Part shown: piece by piece, positions 3,773 to 28,634 of the stretch
Numbering within the stretch: the stretch's first letter is position 1
How the letters are laid out: every line of letters starts with the position of its first letter
Assembly: GCA_016208915.1 (NCBI GenBank)
Contig: JACQXE010000052.1
Location: forward strand, 23,268-87,267
DNA length: 64,000 nt
DNA from: Nitrospirota bacterium
Lineage (GTDB): Bacteria; Nitrospirota; Thermodesulfovibrionia; Thermodesulfovibrionales; UBA1546
Direction: 5' to 3'
Notes under the pieces: generated by a model
Database searches by the model: none
What the model was told of the DNA's origin: nothing
Seen by the model: only the letters and a program-made list of their open reading frames with translations
Program-made: the position numbers and the translations under genes

Positions 3773-3797
3773 ATGTAGCCACAGGCTTTAGCCTGCG
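3773..3797 (+). repeat. REP-like 25-nt repeat, left of RAYT
   Basis: ATGTAGCCACAGGCTTTAGCCTGCG. Confidence 0.85.
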
Positions 3798-3805
3798 AGG
3801 ATAAT

Positions 3806-4300
3806 GTGAGGATAAAAGAAAAAAGGCATAGATTATCCAAAGAATTTTATAAAGGAGAAGTATCTGTCGCTTTCACATTATGTGTGAAACGGGATGTAAT
3901 CGCAGGCTTTAGCCTGCGTGAACCTGAAATTGTAAGCACGTTCACTAATATTCTTTCGTCGGTTGTTGTTGAAGCAAAGTGTATTGTTCCAGTTTATTGT
4001 TTCATGTCTGATCATCAACATATAATAATCGCAGGAACATGTAGTGATTCTGACATATGGGAAGCAATAACAAAATACAAACAAAAGACTGGTTTCTGGT
4101 TGTCTTCAAATAAATCTGGTGGTAAGTGGCAGAAGGATTTTTATGATCATGTAATAAGAAAGCATGAAGATATGACAGCCCAGATAATGTACATACTTGA
4201 TAACCCGGTAAGAAAAGGATTGGTGTTATCATGGCAGGAATATCCATACAAAGGTGCTATCGGATGCAAAATAGAAGATGTTTTAAATGGGATCATCTGA
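3806..4300 (+). mobile_element. REP-associated tyrosine transposase (RAYT, Y1/IS200-like family)
   Basis: HxH motif in CFMSDHQHIII, catalytic-type Tyr in KDFYDHVIR, flanking inverted REPs. Confidence 0.85.
3894..3918 (+). repeat. REP-like 25-nt repeat inside the RAYT coding sequence
   Basis: ATGTAATCGCAGGCTTTAGCCTGCG, encodes DVIAGFSLR. Confidence 0.85.
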
Positions 4301-4305
4301 ACAAT

Positions 4306-4330
4306 CGCAGGCTAAAGCCTGCGGCTACAT
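4306..4330 (-). repeat. REP-like 25-nt repeat, right of RAYT, inverted
   Basis: reverse complement ATGTAGCCGCAGGCTTTAGCCTGCG. Confidence 0.85.
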
Positions 4331-4346
4331 CTATGGAGATATTGAA

Positions 4347-5393
4347 ATGCTCACAGAAATAATCAGAATGTTCAAAGAGGAAGATGGTTTTGTATCCGGT
4401 GAGGAGATGAGCAGGAGGCTCGGCATCACAAGGGCTGCGATATGGAAAAAGATAGAGGCATTGAGGAATAAAGGATTCAGGATCGAAGGCTCTCCTGCAA
4501 AGGGGTACAGGCTGGTGAGGTCTCCGGAATTTTCAGTTGATGAACTCAGGACATTAATCCCCCCTCGCCCCCCTTTGGGAAAGGGGGGATGGGGGGATTT
4601 CATAGGCAGGGAGATTATCTTTCATGAGAGGACTGATTCTACAAATGTAATGGCTATGAAGCTTGCGGAAAATGGCGCAGGTAACGGAACGGTTGTTATC
4701 GCTGACAGCCAGTCAAAAGGAAAAGGACGGCTCGGCAGAACATGGACCTCGCCTTCAGGCATGAATGTATATATGAGCATTATTCTTAGGCCTGAGATAG
4801 AACCTAAGGATGCAACCCTGCTTACTATCATGTCTGCCGTTGCCTGTGCGAGAGCCATCAGAAATATCTCAGGGCTCCATGTTGGAATAAAATGGCCTAA
4901 TGACCTGATGGCGTCTGACAAAAAGATCGGCGGGATACTGACAGAGATGAAATCAGACCCTGACAGAATAATCTTTGCTGTTATAGGCATAGGCATTAAT
5001 GTGAATATGAACCAGAAGGATTTTCCGTCTGAGATAAAGCCTATCGCTACATCAATCAGAGAAGAACTCAATAATCCCCCCTCACCCCCCTTTGGTAAAG
5101 GGGGGATGGGGGGATTTGGAAAAGGTGAAATCTCACGCACACATATAATTGCCGGGATATTGAATGAGATGGACAGATGGTACGGGATTCTGAGAAAAAA
5201 GGGAAAGACGCCTCTGCTTGATGAATGGAGAGAATTCTCGTCAACTCTCGGAAGGAAGGTAAGGGTTTCAGCAGGCAGCCAGACATTCACAGGCATTGCA
5301 GAGGACATAGATGATGAGGGTATGCTTTTAGTGAGGCTTTCTTCAGGAGGATTAAAAAAAATCAGTGCAGGAGATGTGATGTTATTAAGGTGA
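4347..5393 (+). CDS. birA: Biotin operon repressor / biotin-[acetyl-CoA-carboxylase] ligase
   Basis: N-terminal HTH (MSRRLGITRAAIWKKIEAL), DSTNVMAMKLAENGA, SKGKGRLGRTWTSPSGMNVYMSIILRP, KWPNDLM, GIGINVN; the longer ORF from 4287 reads through the REP so 4347 preferred. Confidence 0.92.
   Translation: MLTEIIRMFKEEDGFVSGEEMSRRLGITRAAIWKKIEALRNKGFRIEGSPAKGYRLVRSPEFSVDELRTLIPPRPPLGKGGWGDFIGREIIFHERTDSTNVMAMKLAENGAGNGTVVIADSQSKGKGRLGRTWTSPSGMNVYMSIILRPEIEPKDATLLTIMSAVACARAIRNISGLHVGIKWPNDLMASDKKIGGILTEMKSDPDRIIFAVIGIGINVNMNQKDFPSEIKPIATSIREELNNPPSPPFGKGGMGGFGKGEISRTHIIAGILNEMDRWYGILRKKGKTPLLDEWREFSSTLGRKVRVSAGSQTFTGIAEDIDDEGMLLVRLSSGGLKKISAGDVMLLR
4556..4600. repeat. C/G-run palindromic repeat inside birA (copy 1)
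   Basis: aatcccccctcgcccccctttgggaaaggggggatggggggattt, reads IPPRPPLGKGGWGDF. Confidence 0.9.
5073..5117. repeat. C/G-run palindromic repeat inside birA (copy 2)
   Basis: aatcccccctcacccccctttggtaaaggggggatggggggattt, reads NPPSPPFGKGGMGGF. Confidence 0.9.
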
Positions 5394-5419: not shown

Positions 5420-5555
5420 AATAAGAACAGGGTATTGTACTCTCGCTCATTCTCGGCCTTACGGCCTCCGAGGTTTTTGCCTCTTGATTATTTATATTCC
5501 TACTGTCGGAATATCAGCAAAAAAAGCCGCTCAAATACAATACCCTGTTCTTATT
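5420..5555 (+). repeat. Repeat element with conserved core and private perfect inverted arms, copy A
   Basis: 20-bp perfect arms aataagaacagggtattgta (5420-5439)/tacaataccctgttcttatt (5536-5555); core 5444-5532 shared with copy B. Confidence 0.85.
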
Positions 5556-28500: not shown

Positions 28501-28634
28501 AAAGATGGAAGATATAGTGTTAGAGCGGCTTATTTTGCCGATATTCAGACAGTAAGACATAAAAATATCAAGAGGTAAAATCCTCGGAGGCCGCAAGGCC
28601 GAGAATGAGCGAAAATACTATATCTTCCATCTTT
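28501..28634 (-). repeat. Repeat element with conserved core and private perfect inverted arms, copy B
   Basis: 18-bp perfect arms aaagatggaagatatagt (28501-28518)/actatatcttccatcttt (28617-28634); core 28523-28611 on minus strand, 76/89 match to copy A by hand. Confidence 0.85.

Follow-up and report, generated by a model that had tools for sequence, protein, structure and literature searches.

How can a repeat keep its centre constant when each copy carries its own pair of complementary ends? The question is raised by positions 5420-5555 of the window (the whole analysed stretch of 64,000 nucleotides, from a Nitrospirota bacterium), which a first-pass annotation had described as an element with a conserved core and private, perfectly complementary arms (copy A). 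Direct checking of the sequence bore out the complementarity: the arms, 20 nt each, are perfect reverse complements and flank a core of 96 nt (Table 1). The chance expectation for such a perfect arm pair in 64 kb is about 3e-5. Copy B, on the minus strand at 28501-28634, is the sole further copy found within the window. The core that it shares with copy A is a genuine repeat, as the annotation had it, with at least 40 matches in the genome of origin down to E = 5e-16.

Table 1. Parts of copies A and B, with positions in the window (P1, outer stem formed by the arms; P2 and P3, inner helices; A1, alignment of 51 copies).
Feature	Position	Strand	Basis or remark
Copy A left arm (P1, 5′ side on the plus strand)	5420-5439	+	perfect complement of 5536-5555
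Copy A core, three-way junction with P2 and P3	5440-5535	+	at least 40 homologous copies; alignment A1; A.C versus G.T asymmetry
Junction motif CGCTCATTCTCGG, present across phyla	5444-5456	+	alignment and motif searches
P2 hairpin: CTC (5452-5454)/GAG (5470-5472), GGCC (5455-5458)/GGCC (5463-5466), TCC bulge	5452-5472	+	covariation, tip swapping
P3 5′ strand TTTTTGCC	5474-5481	+	pairs with 5516-5523; covariation
P3 3′ strand AGCAAAAA	5516-5523	+	alignment A1 and covariation
Right junction motif CCGCTCAAA	5527-5535	+	alignment A1
Copy A right arm (P1, 3′ side)	5536-5555	+	perfect complement of the left arm
Copy B right arm AACACTATATCTTCCATCTTT	28501-28521	-	one A.C mismatch in the extended pairing
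Copy B core	28522-28613	-	88% identical to the copy A core
Copy B left arm AAAGATGGAAGATATAGTATT	28614-28634	-	pairs with the right arm

Matches to the core were present in 25 of the 61 genomes searched, the genome of origin included. One relative (G004) has 105 occurrences of the motif CTCATTCTCG, compared with 2 of the reversed control, and 92 of the 107 elements read there have paired arms, with a median length of 20 bp. In the GTDB collection, at least 103 contig stretches carry the exact motif CGCTCATTCTCGG...CCTCCGAGG. Most of them are from Thermodesulfovibrionales (Nitrospirota), and the motif is also present in records labelled Desulfobulbaceae, Desulfobacterales, Desulfurivibrio, Parcubacteria, Giovannonibacteria, Latescibacterota, Halorhodospira and Lachnospiraceae. 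Most copies read in this collection show the same architecture, with their own arms of about 17-56 bp; the single Lachnospiraceae match lacks it and may be due to chance. Motif matches numbered 29 in one Desulfobacterales genome, 12 in Desulfurivibrio sp. AMeS2 and 6 in a Parcubacteria genome of 0.5 Mb. Most of these records are metagenome assemblies, so a phylum with a lone occurrence may owe it to a mis-binned contig; the record of Desulfurivibrio sp. AMeS2 comes from RefSeq and bears no MAG label. The arm consensus varies by group, with GTTCCC... in several Desulfobacterota. Inverted or head-to-head duplicate elements lying about 100-120 bp apart were also seen in Desulfobacterales (L278/L372) and Desulfurivibrio (L357/L362).

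In the loci read, the copies sit between ordinary chromosomal genes. Most left ends of the element are no more than about 15 nt away from a stop codon, and the next start commonly follows 10-25 nt after the right end. In co-directional gene pairs, defined by gene calls that were simple open reading frames, the strand shown for copy A is the sense strand 61 times versus 25 (p = 1e-4). At two loci of G007 (L144 and L131) another hairpin, CAGTGTCAG...CTGACACTG, occupies the place of the G004 element; it is apparently another repeat found after stop codons.

A known RNA was rejected as an identity, there being no Rfam match above the gathering score, and a phage or plasmid origin was rejected in view of the lack of any match in viral contigs, plasmids and phages. 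The literature searched for the motif and for similar repeats held no description of it. Copies A and B belong to a widespread and apparently undescribed family of non-coding hairpin elements of about 130-135 bp.

In alignment A1 the arms pair over 20 positions, more weakly at the outer end. When P1, P2 and P3 are paired, 90.9% of the cells hold standard pairs, versus 76.8% after shuffling and 36-49% with slid partners. Changes on both sides were found for 26 of the 35 pairs and for 19 of the 20 pairs of P1. Judged from these changes, the outer stem is conserved as a structure and not as a sequence, and the pattern first noticed in two copies, with complementarity kept within copies and sequences diverging between them, holds family-wide. 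The arms had also been called private to each copy. This is correct insofar as they differ between copies, but a loose consensus (AAGGCAGGATATAGTATTT / AAATACTATATCCTGCCTT) is common to them, and a second arm type carries ...GGGAACAATCTTT; the arms of different copies are therefore not wholly unrelated.

The core is structured, as had been proposed, and forms a three-way junction with covarying P2 and P3. P2 consists of CTC/GAG and a variable hairpin, while P3 is formed by (N)TTTTGCC and GGCAAAA(N). Of the three small hairpins named earlier, GGCC-TTAC-GGCC is real and corresponds to the covarying P2, ATATTCC...GGAATAT is not conserved, and GAGG...CCTC competes with the better-supported P3. The gaps of 3-5 nt given between core and arms are usually smaller, most copies extending the pairing into TTT/AAA. 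Several copies (L016, L026, L031, L040 and others) have a second palindrome, CCTGCCTGCCGGCAGGCAGG, nested at their P2 hairpin.

The arms and the core differ in their inheritance. Sister species carry identical arms, or arms with compensated changes, at orthologous loci (L072/L117, L069/L159, L089/L104), whereas different loci with near-identical cores have arms about as different as those of random pairs. At core distances of 0.04-0.10 the arm distance reaches 86-98% of saturation, compared with 30-42% for free core positions, and among copies at core distances below 0.1 the paralogs have near-saturated arms while the orthologs keep theirs. Over 700 site pairs the association between arm and core has a mean z of 0.03, versus 38 for paired arm sites. 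The saturated arm distance between paralogs, together with the looseness of the arm consensus, upholds the annotation's view that this is not an ordinary MITE with fixed terminal inverted repeats (TIRs).

Such independence could also arise if gene conversion homogenised the cores of old insertions whose ordinary arms drift with compensation, an account that we consider unlikely but that draws on specific loci. Arms persist at orthologous positions where P2/P3, or the core as a whole, is different (L415/L161, L451/L149, L442/L469, L439/L471). The core of L442 is 97% identical to that of L444, 7 kb away, yet its arm is common with G007, and in the chimeric copy L097 the two arms do not match each other. 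Part of the arm-core independence, for example at L442 and L439, could be put down to gene conversion exchanging cores between copies. Such exchange does not easily explain L194 and L412, which lie 1.4 kb apart in G004. Their cores are 100% identical, with exact boundaries at TTCGCTC and CCGCTCA, while their arms differ at 44% of positions. Both sites are empty and without arms in the sister genome G011, so these copies look young. Moreover, most close vertical orthologs show no core conversion.

Mismatches within the arms are not symmetrical between the strands. At fixed alignment positions, counted without the A.C-tolerant arm finder, A.C outnumbers G.T by 69 to 19 on the copy-A strand; in G004 the ratio was 173 to 17, obtained with an arm finder more lenient towards A.C than towards G.T. 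An A.C mismatch on this strand is a G.U or G.T wobble on the other, so the opposite strand folds better. This suggests that the folded molecule is the minus strand of copy A, either as DNA or as an RNA of the element's own. The bias, measured here with the A.C-tolerant finder, is equal for neighbouring genes of either direction relative to the element, and is thus not due to the element being read within an mRNA.

For turnover, the joined flanks of 20 G004 loci were searched in G011, G009 and G007. Several loci were empty in sisters (L081, L074, L071, L086, L078, L091) and others were filled; presence or absence differs between sister species for a large share of the tested copies. One site (L083/L133) is compatible with a TA target-site duplication, the boundaries being blurred by the arms. 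Elsewhere a different, oppositely oriented element occupies the same junction (L093/L158, L167/L197). In-place inversion of the core with retention of the arms is clear at L444/L464 and likely at L087/L115, and hairpin tips have been swapped, with the arms retained, at four pairs of loci (L122/L123, L069/L159, L451/L149, L415/L161). Decay products comprise the core-less L132, two half elements (L473, L474) and short hairpins that retain just a CGCTC loop, the last at about one per genome versus about 100 full copies.

A C-rich palindromic repeat, AATCCCCCCTC..CCCCCCTTTGG..GGGGGGATT, lies at 2665-2713, 4552-4600 and 5069-5117 of the window, two of the copies being within the biotin ligase reading frame. 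In several relatives (L415, L421, L122) the element has related C-rich hairpins in place of its P3 tip.

The strand bias and the turnover both bear on the possibility that the copies are a functional host RNA, located in 3′ or intercistronic DNA and retained there through selection for its structure. Such a role would fit the strong covariation, with compensated changes between orthologs among its signs (L089/L104, L069/L159), and the position just behind stop codons. However, the wobble bias, which does not vary with transcription context, marks a strand that for most copies is antisense to the upstream gene, and a large share of the tested copies come and go between sister species; we regard a host RNA as improbable.

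The empty sites also speak to the two origins suggested by the first-pass annotation, neither of which found support as the general rule. Under one of them, insertion would copy the flank in inverted form, making the arms target-derived. The arms are indeed locus-specific and differ between host groups, and one Halorhodospira copy has perfect arms of 56 bp reaching into the end of gspH. Nevertheless, no arm-like sequence was present in ten empty-site comparisons at seven loci, the empty sites matching the arms no better than did the arms of other loci, and target copying would not produce the clade-specific consensus of the arms. The Halorhodospira arms were rejected as an inverted flank copy: relatives of the locus lack most of the arm, and their gspH-gspI junctions suggest that most of it is foreign to both neighbour genes. 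Flank copying is accordingly rated very unlikely. Least probable of all is insertion of the core into the loop of pre-existing palindromes: the arms of L132 (G009) are almost identical to those of L088 (G004) with the core absent, core orientation flips within related arms (L145, L464) and short arm hairpins with a CGCTC loop occur, but most of the tested orthologous empty sites carry no palindrome, perfect core-less palindromes hardly occur (528 kb gave a single family-like case), the pool of empty targets is missing (about one core-less palindrome per genome against about 100 filled), and the CGCTC-loop forms are equally explained by deletion between CGCTC direct repeats.

We lean towards explaining the family as a mobile element of the REPIN/MITE type, non-autonomous and recognised through its structure, with helices kept paired by selection, by template switching or by both. 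Copy A would then be one insertion of this non-coding element, and its folded minus strand the working form, in which an outer stem of about 20 bp (P1) closes a three-way junction of conserved nucleotides with P2 and P3. A putative trans-acting enzyme would recognise the junction and the presence of the stem, but not the sequence of the stem. The arms would thus be free to change or to be replaced while paired, and the freedom of sequence combined with the requirement for pairing would yield compensated change. Selection for the fold may maintain the pairing, as may a polymerase that switches template from one inverted-repeat arm to the other, or both may act. Template switching is known to homogenise inverted-repeat arms and to invert the spacer (PMC8604942); such switching after insertion could explain the perfect arms and the in-place inversions without selection. 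The analysis linked no transposase or other protein to the element. The loci read contained no larger autonomous or coding copy, and no arm pair spanning more than 170 bp save one likely chance match.

A more radical form overlaps with this general model. The element might be a mobile nucleic acid recognised only as a folded single-stranded three-way junction, its closing stem being remade or replaced at each transposition, so that the junction and the fold would be transmitted and the ends would not; it would depend on an undiscovered enzyme acting in several phyla. We hold this as a tentative and rather doubtful proposal.

Mobile elements are normally identified by their conserved ends. The present family has conserved insides and free ends, and end-based tools are therefore expected to miss it. 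Its hosts include Thermodesulfovibrionales, Desulfobacterota and Parcubacteria among other groups, and a genome can carry up to about 105 copies. The arm pairs, in-place inversions and tip swaps at orthologous loci constitute a natural data set for inverted-repeat evolution, and the enzyme that moves the element could be a new structure-specific recombinase or transposase.

Among known systems, REP/REPIN sequences associated with RAYT (Y1) transposases resemble the family in being short, extragenic, non-coding hairpins in about 100 copies. Compensatory changes across the hairpin have been reported for REPINs (PMC3116915), and alternative complementary stem residues for REPs (PMC3733652). REPINs, however, have conserved ends and a variable middle, the reverse of the present arrangement, with its conserved centre and variable outer arms. 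The REP/REPIN end tags GTAG/GTGG or CGTC each occur at no more than 6 of 350 element ends, and RAYT genes do not lie near the copies, nor does their number follow that of the element: Y1_Tnp counts were, for example, 3 in G004 (about 105 copies) and 7 in G051 (none). The window itself carries, at 3773-4330, a divergent Y1/RAYT-like transposase gene (3806-4300) with inverted REP-like flanks (ATGTAGCCACAGGCTTTAGCCTGCGA / TCGCAGGCTAAAGCCTGCGGCTACAT). A phmmer search with this protein recovered only itself among the loci read, a result by which a divergent RAYT could be missed. Mobilisation by RAYT was rejected, given that the Y1 protein of the window is flanked by its own REP-like repeats and that Y1 presence does not track the element.

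MITE- or ERIC-like elements share the length of about 130 bp, the long hairpin, the intergenic position and the presence or absence between relatives; the family differs from them in having no fixed TIR common to the copies and, in the loci read, no parent transposon. Integron attC sites, some of whose properties are described in PMC2727003, have a folded bottom strand that is recognised by structure, arms that vary but stay complementary, and a position just after a gene. The varying complementary arms and the position just after a gene are likewise found here, and the folded strand recognised by structure would be a further parallel. The end-box pair RYYYAAC/GTTRRRY was present in 0 of 175 copies, against 0.65 expected in shuffles, which shows only a lack of enrichment; attC identity was rejected, the end boxes being absent. 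Template switching, or quasipalindrome mutagenesis, is a mutational process rather than an element and leaves the spread to new sites unexplained, but it resembles the family in the homogenising of arms and the inversion of the spacer, as at L444/L464 and probably L087/L115.
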